Source: Syntrophorhabdus sp. PtaB.Bin027
GTDB taxonomy: Bacteria; Desulfobacterota; Syntrophorhabdia; Syntrophorhabdales; Syntrophorhabdaceae
Length of the DNA stretch: 64,000 nucleotides
Assembly: GCA_002067585.1 (NCBI GenBank)
Contig: MVQO01000228.1
Location: forward strand, 62,001 to 126,000
Reading direction: 5' to 3'
Both the position numbers and the translations under genes were made by a program. The number at the start of each line of letters is the position of its first letter. The first letter of the stretch is position 1. Below, one piece after another: positions 3,395 to 26,186 of the stretch. Under the pieces are notes generated by a model, which was not told where the DNA came from, ran no database searches, and saw nothing but the letters and a program-made list of their open reading frames with translations.

Positions 3395-4777
3395 TTACGC
3401 AAGATATAGATCACTTTCTACCTGCATATTTGTTCCCTTTAGCTTGCTTATGAGTTCTTCCCGGTCAAGAGAAAAGAGTGGGCTGATTTCTACCAGCCTT
3501 TCATGAGGAACTATTATTCCTGCATCATGCAGCCATCGTTTATGAAGTTTTACCATTGATTCGTGAGCGGTTGATGGTGAGTCAGGACCCGATTTATTTT
3601 TTACCGGCGAAAACTCCTCAGAGCGGTCAACCTCCATGCAACACGTTCTTTCAGCAAAAGGAATTGCATCGAAGACAAATGTTTCAAACTTCCAGGCATC
3701 AACATTTTTGCGGGTTCCCTTTGAATCAAGAATTTCAACATTTTTATTAGCGCAGTGATAGGGTAGGGCAAAGCCGTGTGTGTTAAGCGTCTTTACAAAA
3801 GAGAGGTTCATGATGTGAATGGCTGTATTACCCGCCCAGTATAGGATTTCTCCATTATCGTCAAGGGCCTCCATATGTTTCCCACCGAAATCACTGTACT
3901 CGAGGATCGCGTCTTTTCCATCAAGGGATACATAGACACCAACCTTTTCGTCAATCCTTTGTCTCCTGACAACCTTGGTAGAACACTGCGAATTGGCCTG
4001 GGAGTGGTATCCCAGAAATACAGGATCAGCTATTCTTACAAGCGGATTGTCGATCTGACAGTAAAAAAGCTCTGAAAAACCCTGCTCCATGAGCATATCA
4101 AGGAGACCTGATTTGTTGAGCGCACTGAGGGACCCACCGTGACCGTCAGGATTGACGAAAAGACTTGTCTCATCCTTTAATAAAAGCTTCCCTTCAGGGG
4201 TAATGGTTGGCAGCATACCCTGTTGGAAAAAATAAACGCTGTTTTGATCGAGGCCAAAAAAATTATGTGTATCAAAAAACAGAACTGTATCGTCATGGTT
4301 CTCGACACTTGTCATTATAAGAAGTGGTATTTTGGCATTATAACGGAATGAAAGCGCTCTCACCTGCTCTGATAGAAGCTGGAACAGGGTTTTTTTCATG
4401 ATTGGAGAAACAGGGAATGTGCCTTTTGGCCTGTTATGGCCAAGTCTGACGCCCTGTCCCCCTGCAACGATCAGCACAGCTACTTTTCCGTTGGAGATGA
4501 GAGACTCACCAACGAGTTTAGACTCATAGTGAGATTTTCTTTCATTTTCCCTTACCGGTAACGAGACTATTCGGGGAACCTTGATATTTCCACGAAGCGA
4601 CAATGTGGTTTTGGATGCGCAGCATTCATTGTGAAGTCGGAAAACGAGATCAAGGTCGAGATCATTACAATTCTGGAAAAATTTTGATTTCTTATTCGGA
4701 GGCAATCTGTCAACGTGATGAATAATATGATCCTGATTCTTTACTTGAAGCAGGTCAAGAATTGCACGATTATCCAT
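3395..4777 (-). CDS. Eukaryotic-type UDP-N-acetylhexosamine pyrophosphorylase (UDPGP type 1 family)
   Basis: The protein has 460 residues. LIVAGGQGVRLGHNRPKGT (102-120) is the uridylyltransferase signature, and FFQQGMLP (183-190) followed by NPDGHGG (209-215) is the arrangement of the eukaryotic UAP1/AGX/QRI1 branch. It does not resemble bacterial GalU or the GlmU N-domain. Members of that branch make UDP-GlcNAc or UDP-GalNAc from UTP and the HexNAc-1-phosphate, and some paralogues use glucose-1-phosphate, so the substrate is inferred. AGAGGA precedes the ATG. The GlcN-1-P side of the same pathway may lie at 22.5-26.2 kb. I am confident of the family and only moderately confident of the substrate. 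Confidence 0.85.
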   Translation of the reverse strand: MDNRAILDLLQVKNQDHIIHHVDRLPPNKKSKFFQNCNDLDLDLVFRLHNECCASKTTLSLRGNIKVPRIVSLPVRENERKSHYESKLVGESLISNGKVAVLIVAGGQGVRLGHNRPKGTFPVSPIMKKTLFQLLSEQVRALSFRYNAKIPLLIMTSVENHDDTVLFFDTHNFFGLDQNSVYFFQQGMLPTITPEGKLLLKDETSLFVNPDGHGGSLSALNKSGLLDMLMEQGFSELFYCQIDNPLVRIADPVFLGYHSQANSQCSTKVVRRQRIDEKVGVYVSLDGKDAILEYSDFGGKHMEALDDNGEILYWAGNTAIHIMNLSFVKTLNTHGFALPYHCANKNVEILDSKGTRKNVDAWKFETFVFDAIPFAERTCCMEVDRSEEFSPVKNKSGPDSPSTAHESMVKLHKRWLHDAGIIVPHERLVEISPLFSLDREELISKLKGTNMQVESDLYLA

Positions 4778-21007: not shown

Positions 21008-22198
21008 CTAGTACTTATAAAGATGTTCCCTCGTCATGGGAAGAGAATTGTTCAGTCCATTGGTAAAAAGAATCTGGTAAAGCCTTATATCACCCCACCG
21101 AAAGGCAGCAGAACTGCCACGGAGGTACATGCGCCAGGTTCTGACAAGTCTCTCATCAAACATTTTTTTGATCTGGTCCGAGTTTTTTTCAAAACGTTTG
21201 GCCCACTCATCAAGTGTTGCCGAATAGTGGAGGCGCAGGTTCTCGATATCGATCGGGATAAGGCTTTTATCGCCCATGGTTCGAATTATGTGATCCAGGG
21301 CTGGTAGGTGGCCGCCAGGAAAGATATATTTCATAGTCCAGGGATCAAAAGGGGTGTCACGTTCTTTTCCTATGGTATGGAGTAGACCGATTCCACCAGG
21401 TTTCAATATGGACTTAGTTTTCTCCATAAACATAGGGATTAAGCCCTTGCCTACATGCTCGAACATGCCAATGGATACATATTTGTCGAATTGACCCTTA
21501 ACATTACGGTAATCCTCCAAAAGGATGGTTATGCTCTTTTCCAGTCCTTCCTCGGCAACACGTTTTTTCGCGTAATCAGCTTGATGCACAGACAGTGTGC
21601 AACCCAATCCTTTAACCCCGTAATGATGGACTGCATACAGGAGCATACCGCCCCAACCACATCCTATGTCCACTAGAGTCTCGCCTTCCTTAAGGGCTAG
21701 TTTTCGGCAGATATGTTCGTACTTTTGTTGTTGGGCATCTTCAAGAGAATCATTCTTGTTTCTATAGTATGCGCAAGAGTAAGTCATGCTCTCATCAAGA
21801 TATAGCCTGTAAAATTCATTACCTAGATCATAATGGTGGGCAATGTTTCTGGCTGAGCCCCTGAGGGTGTTGAGGGACAAAAGATGGTTCATGAGGGCTG
21901 CCATCCTTGTGCCAAAAGACAGCTTTATATTCTGAAATTCAGGGCATATGCCGAGACGGACCAGGTATACAAAATCTCCCTCTACATCGATGTTCCCCTC
22001 TACGTATTCTTCAGCAAAGCCCATAGAACCTTTTGAAAATATTTTTTTGATCGATTTCTGATGCTTGAAGATGATTGTGAAGGATGGTTCTCCTATTCCG
22101 AACCGTTCTGATTGATTATCCCAATAGCGTATTTCAAAGGGGATCTCCGGTAGGCTATGGCTTAGTGTCCGAAGCAGCTTTCGGAGGACTTCTTTCAT
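21008..22198 (-). CDS. cfa: Cyclopropane-fatty-acyl-phospholipid synthase
   Basis: The 396-residue enzyme transfers a methylene from S-adenosylmethionine to unsaturated acyl chains of membrane phospholipids. HHYDLGNEFYRLYLD (121-135) and MTYSCAYY are diagnostic for CFA/mycolic-acid cyclopropane synthases. The SAM motif VDIGCGWGG is at 176-184. The N-terminal lipid-binding domain is also present, so it is a full-length Cfa (E. coli 382). A candidate promoter lies at 22215-22244. It is divergent from the beta-helix acyltransferase operon. Confidence 0.94.
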   Translation of the reverse strand: MKEVLRKLLRTLSHSLPEIPFEIRYWDNQSERFGIGEPSFTIIFKHQKSIKKIFSKGSMGFAEEYVEGNIDVEGDFVYLVRLGICPEFQNIKLSFGTRMAALMNHLLSLNTLRGSARNIAHHYDLGNEFYRLYLDESMTYSCAYYRNKNDSLEDAQQQKYEHICRKLALKEGETLVDIGCGWGGMLLYAVHHYGVKGLGCTLSVHQADYAKKRVAEEGLEKSITILLEDYRNVKGQFDKYVSIGMFEHVGKGLIPMFMEKTKSILKPGGIGLLHTIGKERDTPFDPWTMKYIFPGGHLPALDHIIRTMGDKSLIPIDIENLRLHYSATLDEWAKRFEKNSDQIKKMFDERLVRTWRMYLRGSSAAFRWGDIRLYQILFTNGLNNSLPMTREHLYKY

Positions 22199-22214
22199 CT
22201 ACGTCACCCTTAAA

Positions 22215-22244
22215 CATATAGCAAGGTTGGTTCATGCTTGTCAA
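22215..22244 (-). promoter_or_regulatory. Candidate sigma-70-type promoter of cfa
   Basis: Read on the minus strand, TTGACA (22239-22244) is followed 18 bases later by TATATG (22215-22220), which ends 16 bases before the cfa ATG. The -35 match is perfect. Position and orientation fit a short-leader cfa transcript. Confidence 0.5.
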
Positions 22245-22272
22245 ATTGTTTGATAGCAAGACCTTGTTTTTA

Positions 22273-22301
22273 TTGACATAAAAACAAAAAAGTGTTAATG
22301 T
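22273..22301 (+). promoter_or_regulatory. Candidate sigma-70-type promoter of the acyltransferase-glmM operon
   Basis: TTGACA at 22273-22278 and TAATGT at 22296-22301 are separated by exactly 17 bases. Transcription would start near 22308 and leave a 5' leader of about 237 bases before the ATG at 22545, long enough to hold a regulatory element. Confidence 0.55.
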
Positions 22302-22464
22302 ACGCCGTCTTTAAGTGGTTCAGTATGGTTTTCTCAATGGATGTTAAAAACAGTTTAGATACGGGTTATCTGTCACACAAGGTACAATGGTAGCATAAGG
22401 TCTCACGATGGGTTTGATTTGTTTGAATTGATTGCTAAATGGAAATGACAGTGCACGTTTCGAA

Positions 22465-22481
22465 ACCACTAAATTAGTGGT
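22465..22481. promoter_or_regulatory. Perfect 17-bp inverted repeat, operator-like
   Basis: ACCACTAAATTAGTGGT is two perfect 8-base arms around a single A, located 64 bp upstream of the acyltransferase start. Its size and symmetry fit a dimeric repressor site or the base of a leader hairpin. No regulator gene is adjacent. Confidence 0.4.
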
Positions 22482-22544
22482 CACAATGTTCGATAATATA
22501 TTGATAAATTTAGATATGTAGCAGATCGGGAAGGGGAGTATGCC

Positions 22545-23798
22545 ATGGATATAAAATTGCGGTGTCACCATAAAATCGTCCAGATGATCGATAAAGGGGT
22601 TGATATTCCAAATCCTTTCTCCATTGATGTAGGCCATGAGGTAGATGTTAATCATATATCAGGCCAAGGTGTCAAAATTTACCCCGGATGCAGGATTTAT
22701 GGTGAAAAGACTGTCATATCGAATGGTTGCCAGATTGGTTATGAAGGACCTGTCACAATAGACGATTGTCAGCTTGGATCCATGGTTGAGCTAAAAGGAG
22801 GATATTTTAATAAATCTGTATTTCTCGAAAAGGCAAGCATGGGTTTGGGAGCCCAGGTGCGTGAAGGTTGCATACTTGAAGAGGAGGCAAATGGTGCTCA
22901 CTGTGTCGGTTTAAAACAGACCATACTCTTCCCTTTTGTGACGCTTGGTAGTCTGATCAATTTCTGTGACTGTTTAATGGCCGGAGGAAAAAGCCGTAAA
23001 AATCACAGTGAGGTTGGAAGTTCTTATATTCATTTTAATTTCACGCCGGATGGAGACAAAAGCACAGCATCACTGATTGGTGATGTTCCAAGAGGCGTCA
23101 TGCTAAATCAACCTCCCATCTTTCTCGGAGGGCAGGGTGGTATTGTAGGGCCACTACGGATGGGGTATGGTAATGTGGTGGCTGCCAATTCTGTGCTGAG
23201 AAATGATTTTCCGGAAGACAATAAACTAATAGTGGGAAAGTCATATTCTGGAAAGACAGTGAATTTCAAGCCCAGAGCATACCAAGGTCTTTCTCGGATA
23301 GTGGGTAACAATATTATATACATTGCGAACCTGATGGCTCTTGAACAGTGGTATATTCATGTCAGGCATTCATTTTTGGAATCACAGGAGTTCGGACAGC
23401 AAATTTTTTCTGGGTTGCTCGAAAAACTTGCTCTTGCGAAAAAAGAGCGGATAAAGCGATTGCAGGTGTTAGCAGAAAAGTCAAAAATAACCCTTAAAAA
23501 CGAGAGCGAAGAAGGGTCAGATACAGTAGGAAGGAATGAATTCCACGAAAGATTTTCTGATATAGAGAGACTGTTTACAGAGGGAATATGTGATGATTCC
23601 GTGGAAAGGTATTATGATGACTTTTTTTTCGAGTTTGAAAGGTTAAGAGGAAAAAAAGAGGCAAAATATATAGCTGTTATACAGGGATTGCCTGCTCATG
23701 TCTCTAAAAAAGGTGTATTGTGGCTTCAAAAGATTGTCGATATTTTTTGTGAACGCGTGAAGGCAATTGTGCCTTCTTTTAAGCTGGTAGGTTGCTAA
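22545..23798 (+). CDS. Left-handed beta-helix acyltransferase, GlmU C-domain-like, no nucleotidyltransferase domain
   Basis: The product has 417 residues. From about residue 40 the sequence shows hexapeptide-repeat turns (VKIYPGCRIYG, VISNGCQIGYEGPVTIDD). NHSEVGSSYIHFNFTPDGD and GGQGGIVGPLRMGYGNVVAAN resemble the acetyl-CoA-site coils of GlmU-like proteins. There is no N-terminal GGxGTR pyrophosphorylase domain, and the last 120 residues are predicted charged helix. It is probably the acetyltransferase acting on glucosamine-1-phosphate, judged by its place directly before glmM. AGGGGAG precedes the ATG. Substrate is inferred. Confidence 0.75.
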   Translation: MDIKLRCHHKIVQMIDKGVDIPNPFSIDVGHEVDVNHISGQGVKIYPGCRIYGEKTVISNGCQIGYEGPVTIDDCQLGSMVELKGGYFNKSVFLEKASMGLGAQVREGCILEEEANGAHCVGLKQTILFPFVTLGSLINFCDCLMAGGKSRKNHSEVGSSYIHFNFTPDGDKSTASLIGDVPRGVMLNQPPIFLGGQGGIVGPLRMGYGNVVAANSVLRNDFPEDNKLIVGKSYSGKTVNFKPRAYQGLSRIVGNNIIYIANLMALEQWYIHVRHSFLESQEFGQQIFSGLLEKLALAKKERIKRLQVLAEKSKITLKNESEEGSDTVGRNEFHERFSDIERLFTEGICDDSVERYYDDFFFEFERLRGKKEAKYIAVIQGLPAHVSKKGVLWLQKIVDIFCERVKAIVPSFKLVGC

Positions 23799-23829
23799 TT
23801 ATTCTTCAAATTGTAAGGAGGAGTTATAG

Positions 23830-25179
23830 ATGGGTAGACTTTTTGGTACCGACGGCGTCAGAGGAGAAGCTAACCGCTATCCCATGAACGCTGAAATAGC
23901 CTTTGCGCTCGGGCAGGCTGTAGTCTACATTTTGAAGAAGGAACATGGACGGCCAAGAATAATGATTGGGAAAGACACCCGTATCTCAGGCTACATGCTC
24001 GAAAGCTCGCTTGAATCAGGAATAACTTCAATGGGCGGCTACCCCTATCTTCTTTCAGTATTGCCAACACCAGGTATTGCTTTTATAGCACAGAGTATGC
24101 GCGCTGCAGCAGGGATTGTGATTTCAGCCTCCCATAATCCCTACCAGGACAACGGTATAAAAATATTTTCTGGTAGTGGTTTCAAGTTATCGGATGAACA
24201 GGAAGAAACGATTGAGGATCTGATGCTGAGCAATACACTTCACACACTCGTGCCGCCTGTGAAGGATATGGGACAGGCGTTTCGTATGGAGGATGTGAAT
24301 GGTCGATACATTGTATTTTTAAAAAACACCTTTCCTCGAGATTTATCCATAGAAGGGATGAAGATTGTCCTGGATACTGCAAATGGTGCTACGTATAAGG
24401 TTGCTCCGGATACCTTCTGGGAACTTGGTGCGAATATAGATGTCATTCACAACTCCCCAAATGGCATCAACATAAACGACAAGTGTGGGTCGCAGCACAC
24501 AGAAGACCTGAGAAAAAGGGTCGTTGAAAAAGGTGCTGCAATCGGGCTTGCCTTCGATGGTGACGGTGATCGCCTCATAGCGGTTGATGAAAAGGGCCAG
24601 GAGATAACTGGTGATCAAATCCTGCTGATCTGTGCAAAGATGCTCAAAGATCAGGGTAAACTGAAAAACAACCTGCTTGTTGCCACAGTAATGAGCAACC
24701 TTGGGCTAAGGGTTGCCTGCAAGAGATATGGTTTTAAATATCACGCCTCTAAAGTTGGGGATAGATACGTACTCGAGGATATGATCAGGCTGGGCAGCAT
24801 AATCGGTGGGGAGCAGTCAGGACATATGGTATTTCTCGATCATCATACAACAGGAGACGGAATTGTTACAGCAATGCAACTACTTGCGGCCATGGTCAAG
24901 ACAGGCAAGCCTTTATCGGAACTTGCCAAAATGATGGATATATATCCTCAGAAGCTGATCAACGTGGACGTGAAAAGTAAGCCCGATATAAATACGGTGC
25001 CTAAAGTCATGAAAATAATAGACAAGGTCGAGAGAGAATTGAAAGACGAGGGACGTGTTCTTGTGAGGTATTCAGGTACCCAGAACATGTGTAGGGTCAT
25101 GGTTGAGGGGCCTTCAGATAGTGTTACTGAGAAATACTGTGAAGAAATTGCTGATGTTGTAAAGAATGTGCTGGGTTGA
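23830..25179 (+). CDS. glmM: Phosphoglucosamine mutase
   Basis: The 449-residue protein interconverts glucosamine-6-phosphate and glucosamine-1-phosphate. MGRLFGTDGVRG is the family N-terminus, and VISASHNPYQDNGIK carries the phosphorylated Ser101. The metal loop FDGDGDR, the sugar loop GGEQSGHM and the phosphate-binding RYSGTQNMCRVM are all intact. GGEQSGH plus the length favour GlmM over phosphomannomutase. AAGGAGGAG precedes the ATG. It lies 31 bp after the acyltransferase and 47 bp before the NagB-like gene, so an operon is likely. Confidence 0.95.
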   Translation: MGRLFGTDGVRGEANRYPMNAEIAFALGQAVVYILKKEHGRPRIMIGKDTRISGYMLESSLESGITSMGGYPYLLSVLPTPGIAFIAQSMRAAAGIVISASHNPYQDNGIKIFSGSGFKLSDEQEETIEDLMLSNTLHTLVPPVKDMGQAFRMEDVNGRYIVFLKNTFPRDLSIEGMKIVLDTANGATYKVAPDTFWELGANIDVIHNSPNGININDKCGSQHTEDLRKRVVEKGAAIGLAFDGDGDRLIAVDEKGQEITGDQILLICAKMLKDQGKLKNNLLVATVMSNLGLRVACKRYGFKYHASKVGDRYVLEDMIRLGSIIGGEQSGHMVFLDHHTTGDGIVTAMQLLAAMVKTGKPLSELAKMMDIYPQKLINVDVKSKPDINTVPKVMKIIDKVERELKDEGRVLVRYSGTQNMCRVMVEGPSDSVTEKYCEEIADVVKNVLG

Positions 25180-25226
25180 GAAATTCTCATCAGTTTGGCT
25201 CATAAATCTAGGCCTGGAGGAGTAGT

Positions 25227-26186
25227 ATGCCTATTGAGGTAGTCATAACGAATGATTTTGAACATCTCAGCAAGGTCGCAGCGGAAATAGTCAAGAAAAA
25301 ACTGGTTGAATTGTTGAAAAGGAAGAAAGAAGTTGTCTTGGGGCTTGCAACAGGGAACTCCCCGACAGGGATGTACAAACATCTGGCGAGAGCGGCAAAC
25401 AATGGGGAATTCGACAGCAGCAGGATACGAAGCTTTAACCTTGATGAATACATTGGACTGCCCGGAGAAAATGCCCAGCAGCGGGCCCTGCATCCTGAAA
25501 GCTACTGCTATTTCATGATCCAGGAGTTTTTCGGGCTTCTTAAGAAGAAATTTATTGAAACAAATGTGCCTTTTGGTTCGCTCATCGACCAGAAAGTACT
25601 AATAAAAGAGCTGAAGAGATATCCCCATGATTGGGCTTGTAAAGGCACGGGTGCAGGAAAATCGATCGTTATCAAACAAAAAACGGGATCAGAATACCTT
25701 TCATGGATAAGAAAGGAGATATTAAACGGATACATGCAGAAAATAAAAAAAGCCGGAGGCATAGATATTCAGATAATTGGCGTCGGGGGGCGGGGGCACG
25801 TGGCTTTTCATGAATCAGGTGTGCCTTTTGAGGGAAGTTCAGTTATGCTTGTCAAGCTTGATGATAACACTATTAAAGATTCCGTAACTGATGGACACTT
25901 CATCTCAAAAAAAGATTACCCAAATTATGCCATATCAATGAGTGCAGAGCTTGTGTATCAGGCAAGAAATGTAGTGCTCTTAGCAAACGGCGAAAGAAAA
26001 GTTGAGTCTGTTACCCGGTCACTCCTTGGAGATGTGAACCCTGAAGTCCCTATTTCCTATGGACAGAAATATGCTCTTAATGGTGGTAATTTGATCTACG
26101 TGCTTGACAAGATAGCAGGCAGGAACCTTATTGATAATAAAAGCAACCTTAAAAAAATGAATATAGTTTTAAAGGACCTAACCTAA
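25227..26186 (+). CDS. NagB-like glucosamine-6-phosphate deaminase/isomerase homologue, altered active site
   Basis: The product has 319 residues against about 266 for E. coli NagB. LATGNSPTGMY (40-50) is the phosphate-binding loop, SFNLDEYIGLP contains the Asp equivalent to D72 (Asp73), and VGGRGHVAFHE (186-196) matches NagB GNDGHIAFNE. In that motif His191 and Glu196 are kept, but the Asp equivalent to D141 is Arg189. An extra segment lies around residues 128-165. NagB converts GlcN-6-P to fructose-6-P and ammonia, and the reverse is known for some homologues. Next to glmM, a biosynthetic or sensory role is plausible. GGAGGAG precedes the ATG. Confidence 0.82.
   Translation: MPIEVVITNDFEHLSKVAAEIVKKKLVELLKRKKEVVLGLATGNSPTGMYKHLARAANNGEFDSSRIRSFNLDEYIGLPGENAQQRALHPESYCYFMIQEFFGLLKKKFIETNVPFGSLIDQKVLIKELKRYPHDWACKGTGAGKSIVIKQKTGSEYLSWIRKEILNGYMQKIKKAGGIDIQIIGVGGRGHVAFHESGVPFEGSSVMLVKLDDNTIKDSVTDGHFISKKDYPNYAISMSAELVYQARNVVLLANGERKVESVTRSLLGDVNPEVPISYGQKYALNGGNLIYVLDKIAGRNLIDNKSNLKKMNIVLKDLT

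Follow-up and report, generated by a model that had tools for sequence, protein, structure and literature searches.

A detached GlmU-acetyltransferase-like gene beside glmM in Syntrophorhabdus, a candidate for one half of a split GlmU pathway

The glmM locus

The window analysed here is a stretch of 64,000 nucleotides from the genome bin Syntrophorhabdus sp. PtaB.Bin027 (contig MVQO01000228.1, positions 62,001 to 126,000), and it carries a run of three genes, all on the forward strand, around the phosphoglucosamine mutase gene glmM. Gene 1 (22545..23798) encodes a protein of 417 amino acids (aa) with a left-handed beta-helix resembling the acetyltransferase part of GlmU and a helical C-terminal domain. 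Gene 2 (23830..25179) is glmM, whose 449-aa product scores 586 bits against TIGR01455 (cut-off 447.55). Gene 3 (25227..26186) encodes a 319-aa NagB-like protein of family PF01182, which is considered here as an accessory member. A first-pass annotation, made from the DNA alone, had described an operon of these three genes with gaps of 31 bp (gene 1 to glmM) and 47 bp (glmM to gene 3), an intact GlmM and a shared candidate promoter. The open reading frames, both gaps and the integrity of GlmM are borne out, and a purine-rich Shine-Dalgarno-like stretch precedes each gene. The promoter found no support, as a consensus scan of the 5' intergenic region (22150-22545) gave no match of the sigma-70 type.

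The gene order is conserved well beyond the host. Within the order, sampled with 46 genomes, every one of the 30 loci read has gene 1 immediately 5' of glmM, and glmM directly follows gene 1 in 100 of the 114 wider loci with room for it, so the arrangement is not due to chance. A scan of GTDB contigs returned at least 536 relatives of gene 1. The best 80 of these are labelled mostly as Deltaproteobacteria (Syntrophorhabdus, Syntrophaceae, Smithella, Syntrophobacteraceae and Desulfobacteraceae), together with some actinobacterial bins. Two actinobacterial bins (L169 and L171) show the order gene 1-glmM-NagB-like-glmS.

Many genomes of the Syntrophaceae type encode beside gene 1 a protein of about 1250 aa with glutamine amidotransferase and SIS domains and large unclassified ends, a distant relative of GlmS (L112:1003-4776; L116, L120, L123, L127, L128, L131, L135 and L137); in L199, L229 and L230 it lies downstream of gene 1. 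Some genomes (L222, L224 and L136) also carry a second, more diverged paralogue of gene 1 away from glmM.

Fold and residues of the gene 1 protein

The gene 1 protein stays below every curated cut-off of Pfam and NCBIfam. The highest-scoring curated models are those of GlmU, with 52 bits and a coverage of GlmU positions 231-428 only; the model for bifunctional GlmU, TIGR01173, gives 46 bits (cut-off 366.85) and is covered over 242-437 only. Profile-profile comparison with full GlmU gives an E-value of 1.5e-14 over residues 8-235 of gene 1, and GlmU models are matched by all 97 diverse relatives that were collected. The matches fall on the C-terminal halves of GlmU only. The earlier description of gene 1 as a GlmU C-domain acyltransferase lacking the partner domain holds.

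An AlphaFold2 model built with the 97 relatives has a predicted local distance difference test score (pLDDT) of 94.3 and a predicted template modelling score of 0.94; it replaced a poor model (pLDDT 56.6) made with 22 close relatives. The top 32 fold matches in the PDB are all GlmU, ahead of LpxD and LpxA, and the isolated acetyltransferase domain of the Escherichia coli enzyme (4aa7) aligns with a template modelling score of 0.82 by target length. The beta-helix occupies residues 1-247 (22545..23285, forward strand) and the all-helical C-terminal domain residues 248-417 (23286..23795, forward strand); for this 170-residue tail no Pfam match was found even at an E-value of 1. Judged by sequence and modelled fold, the product of gene 1 is a GlmU-ACETYLTRANSFERASE-like protein. 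The C-domain hidden Markov models of GlmU, the profile-profile comparison, the AlphaFold2 model and the PDB matches together suggest a role as a detached glucosamine-1-phosphate (GlcN-1-P) N-acetyltransferase.

Residues were counted in the 97 relatives, with positions mapped on the profile alignment to E. coli GlmU, in which, as is established, R333, K351 and K392, among others, bind the sugar phosphate and H363 is the catalytic base. R333 corresponds to R106 of gene 1 (97/97), K351 to K124 (96/97), N386 to N165 (97/97) and A423 to A214 (96/97), and the phosphate-binding residues keep the same 18-residue spacing. K172 (96/97) falls one alignment residue off K392. The position of T384 is occupied by H163 (97/97), H154 and H119 are each kept in 96 relatives, and the helix domain contains invariant acidic residues.

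Pathway genes in the host genome and its relatives

The host assembly (3.07 Mb in 237 contigs, about 93% complete) encodes a full-length GlmS on contig C167 (816.9 bits, cut-off 418), and a truncated glmU gene lies directly upstream of glmS. In a profile search of the host contigs this GlmU matched positions 2-347 of 452 only. All 14 uridylyltransferase residues that were checked (L11, A13, G14, R18, K25, Q76, G81, T82, Y103, D105, G140, E154, N169 and N227) are identical to those of E. coli GlmU; on the acetyltransferase side, R333 is replaced by L and K351 by M, and everything from H363 onward is absent. The host genome yielded no complete GlmU. The other beta-helix proteins examined resemble, by sequence and context, LpxD, LpxA, a WbpD-like enzyme whose gene adjoins a Gfo/Idh oxidoreductase gene, and a polysaccharide O-acetyltransferase; these look like other functions, and none was retained as the GlcN-1-P acetyltransferase of the host. 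From its gene content, the host probably makes lipid A and needs UDP-N-acetylglucosamine (UDP-GlcNAc), and it probably combines GlmS, GlmM and a uridylyltransferase with the lack of a canonical GlcN-1-P acetyltransferase.

Within the order, 27 genomes have both a truncated GlmU and gene 1, and three have a truncated GlmU without it. Gene 1 is thus carried by 27 of 30 genomes with truncated GlmU versus 7 of 14 with full GlmU, the other seven lacking it (Fisher p 0.006); two genomes with partial GlmU (G004 and G042) were counted apart. As to the three exceptions, G026 and G045 are 84-86% complete, and in G027 the contig begins just before glmM. Wherever the flank of a locus of the order reaches far enough, glmS is nearly always preceded on its 5' side by GlmU, full or truncated. 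Among 296 genomes of the phylum, 66 carry gene 1, of which five have a full GlmU, 45 a truncated or weakly matching one and 16 none at an E-value of 1e-40. Full GlmU is found in about 137 of the 230 genomes without gene 1 versus 5 of the 66 with it (p 5e-15, uncorrected for kinship; full and truncated forms were split by E-value, and the match range was checked for 80 genomes).

In a tree of the GlmU N-domain the truncations are scattered and adjoin gene-1-carrying genomes with full GlmU. This can be read as at least about six separate truncations in lineages with gene 1 and one outside them (G045), counting well-supported groups only and assuming that the lost domain was never regained. A comparison for relaxed selection on the acetyltransferase half of full GlmU gave a C-domain to N-domain distance ratio of 0.76 in gene-1 genomes versus 0.64, from too few sequences to be of use. 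Faulty assembly was dismissed as the source of most truncated genes: their frames end inside contigs, they are common to related genomes, and glmS follows directly. Some edge cases (G042 with a split frame, G295, G055, G065 and G171) look like the result of frameshifts or contig ends, and they were set aside.

Among genomes of the phylum that lack gene 1, many (loci L174-L193, e.g. L178 and L180) have a GlmU cut back to the uridylyltransferase domain, with or without a few coils. In G004 (locus L062) only the last coils are missing and the protein ends ...TCNYNRRRKKCAE; no gene 1 was found in this 98% complete bin, and the case is a deletion introduced by assembly or else a genuine exception.

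The NagB-like protein scores 49.2 bits against PF01182 (cut-off 27) and 142.6 bits against TIGR00502, below the cut-off of 236.9. The counterparts of NagB D72, H143 and E148 (D73, H191 and E196 of the NagB-like protein) and of K208 are invariant in 49 NagB-like relatives; the position of NagB D141 holds R, K or H, and Arg in gene 3 itself. PDB alignments agree with this mapping to E. coli NagB. The protein is likely an enzyme acting on a sugar phosphate. Of the 46 genomes sampled from the order, 10 have its gene, in every case immediately 3' of glmM. Elsewhere in the window a gene on the reverse strand (3395-4777) encodes a UAP1-like enzyme (PF01704) resembling eukaryotic-type UDP-GlcNAc diphosphorylases. 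It is present in 38 of the 46 genomes, whether GlmU is full or truncated, and a PF01704 enzyme is rare (3 of 16) in gene-1 genomes of the phylum without detectable GlmU, for which reasons it was rejected as the linked uridylyltransferase. Neither GlmU at 1e-40 nor PF01704 was matched in the gene-1 genomes G077, G108, G199, G219, G237, G256, G259, G275, G277, G292, G294, G311 and G327.

These data bear on a bypass that the first-pass annotation had proposed, in which gene 1, GlmM, the NagB-like protein and the UAP1-like enzyme would lead to UDP-GlcNAc without GlmS or GlmU. The intact glmS contradicts the avoidance of GlmS in this host. The GlmU part of the idea survives in altered form: a complete GlmU was not found, and its uridylyltransferase half is present with all checked residues kept. 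Canonical glmS and glmU in the same genome had been named beforehand as the finding that would refute the route; glmS is there in canonical form and glmU only partially. The low frequency of the NagB-like gene and the occurrence of the UAP1-like gene irrespective of the state of GlmU speak against either being a required member.

A proposed split-GlmU pathway and its alternatives

The most probable interpretation, in our judgement, is a split-GlmU pathway in which the gene 1 family supplies the acetylation of GlcN-1-P and the truncated GlmU performs the uridylyl transfer; as read from the genes, the replacement concerns one half-reaction, this acetylation. GlmS would make glucosamine-6-phosphate (GlcN-6-P), which GlmM would convert to GlcN-1-P, both genes being intact in the host. 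The gene 1 protein, presumably a beta-helix enzyme that forms trimers as GlmU does, would bind GlcN-1-P through Arg106, Lys124, Asn165 and probably Lys172 and acetylate it. In place of the histidine of GlmU it would use another catalytic residue, for which His163, His154 and Ser136 are candidates. The GlcNAc-1-P formed might then pass to the glmS-linked truncated GlmU, which keeps the residues of the uridylyltransferase site only and would act through it. The tree suggests that gene 1 was first redundant with a full GlmU, whose acetyltransferase half may then have been lost repeatedly. The NagB-like protein would be an optional partner, probably acting on GlcN-6-P to balance its pool. A wider proposal, which we place a little short of probable, is that gene 1 founds a broad family (more than 500 relatives of Desulfobacterota type and from Actinobacteria) of GlcN-1-P N-acetyltransferases that stand on their own and whose catalytic residue has moved. 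These would form a module with GlmM, often with a NagB-like or amidotransferase-SIS partner, and may have allowed GlmU to lose its acetyltransferase half repeatedly.

Several observations weigh against this interpretation. The position of the GlmU catalytic base H363 holds Ser136 in gene 1 (97/97), that of Y366 holds Asn139 (95/97) and that of N377 holds E156, and Arg440, which contacts coenzyme A (CoA), is not kept. Taken together, the residues suggest that the sugar-phosphate pocket of GlmU has been retained and its catalytic residues altered; with the catalytic and CoA residues changed, the protein may carry out another reaction or be inactive. Full GlmU and gene 1 occur together in seven genomes of the order. 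Conversely, dozens of further genomes in the sample of the phylum have truncated GlmU but no gene 1, and no gene 1 homologue was found at 28 glmM loci from such genomes, two of which, read in detail, show the usual cdaA-ybbR-glmM order. Gene 1 may therefore be one solution among others, and truncation does not depend on its family. G004, with its shortened GlmU and no gene 1, stands near the host genome. Finally, the whole case is built on genome bins and sequence.

One alternative is that gene 1 encodes a catalytically dead sugar-1-phosphate binder of the GlmU type that regulates or scaffolds GlmM, the acetylation of GlcN-1-P being performed by another, unlinked enzyme. The replacement of His363 by Ser and the extra helical domain would fit this, as would the truncated GlmU proteins of lineages without gene 1, which imply that another acetyltransferase must exist somewhere. 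However, the three invariant or nearly invariant histidines, together with the invariant acidic residues, look like an active site, truncation tracks the presence of gene 1 within the order, and the host beta-helix proteins examined offer no other obvious candidate, so that we regard a dead protein as unlikely. Somewhat less likely again is that gene 1 encodes an acyltransferase that uses a different substrate or donor. Eukaryotic GNA1 acetylates GlcN-6-P, and LpxA and LpxD use an acyl-acyl carrier protein donor; gene 1 might act on GlcN-6-P like GNA1 or on another amino sugar-1-phosphate, or take such a donor through its helical domain. The changed donor-side and catalytic residues, the helical domain itself, the NagB-like partner and the glutamine-amidotransferase/SIS neighbour in other taxa would be in keeping with such a role, but all GlmU chains outrank LpxD and LpxA in the fold matches, the phosphate-binding residues of GlmU are kept at their spacing, and the distribution of gene 1 tracks the loss of the GlmU acetyltransferase half.

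The bypass, with GlcN-6-P made by the NagB-like protein in reverse and UDP-GlcNAc by the UAP1-like enzyme, would leave GlmS and GlmU unneeded. Although the former keeps most of the catalytic residues and the latter resembles UDP-GlcNAc diphosphorylases, this route is highly improbable in view of the intact GlmS and GlmU uridylyltransferase domain of the host, the small share of relatives with the NagB-like gene, the indifference of the UAP1-like gene to the state of GlmU and the few PF01704 enzymes in gene-1 genomes without detectable GlmU.

Peptidoglycan and lipopolysaccharide cannot be made without UDP-GlcNAc, and GlmU is regarded as a fusion enzyme that nearly all bacteria have and as a drug target. 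A genome survey reported GlmU or its C-terminus as missing in Chlorobaculum limnaeum and in FCB and spirochaete genomes, and interpreted this as pathway loss (PMC7725333). A search of a collection of open-access papers gave no description of the gene 1 family, nor of a split GlmU next to glmM. The missing GlmU step now has a concrete candidate in a conserved, unnamed family beside glmM, and the genome set lets the swap of the acetyltransferase be followed. If the split-GlmU pathway is true, it would supply a missing annotation in hundreds of genomes and reveal how an essential fusion enzyme becomes divided.

Like the C-domain of bifunctional GlmU (TIGR01173; E. coli b3730), the gene 1 protein has the beta-helix, the Arg and Lys that bind the phosphate of GlcN-1-P and the conserved Asn, and it shares the pathway position beside GlmM and GlmS. 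Unlike GlmU, it is encoded by a separate gene without the uridylyltransferase domain, is 22% identical in the profile alignment, lacks His363, Tyr366, Asn377 and Arg440, and has a 6-residue insert and a helical C-terminal domain of about 170 aa. The archaeal sugar-1-phosphate nucleotidylyltransferase/acetyltransferase (TIGR03992) also has a beta-helix acetyltransferase, and the same reactions are proposed here, but it is a fused two-domain protein whose model is matched by only 2 of the 97 relatives. LpxA and LpxD share the combination of a beta-helix and a helical C-terminal region; their fold match, however, is far weaker (E-values from 1.6e-3 upwards, ranked behind 32 GlmU chains), and the helical domain of gene 1 is much larger. 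Gene 3 has the PF01182 fold of the glucosamine-6-phosphate deaminase NagB, with counterparts of D72, H143, E148 and K208, and differs from it by the Arg, Lys or His in place of D141, an insertion of about 45 residues and the low TIGR00502 score (142.6 vs 236.9). The chemistry is known; what seems new is the gene arrangement, the gene 1 family and, probably, the catalytic residues.

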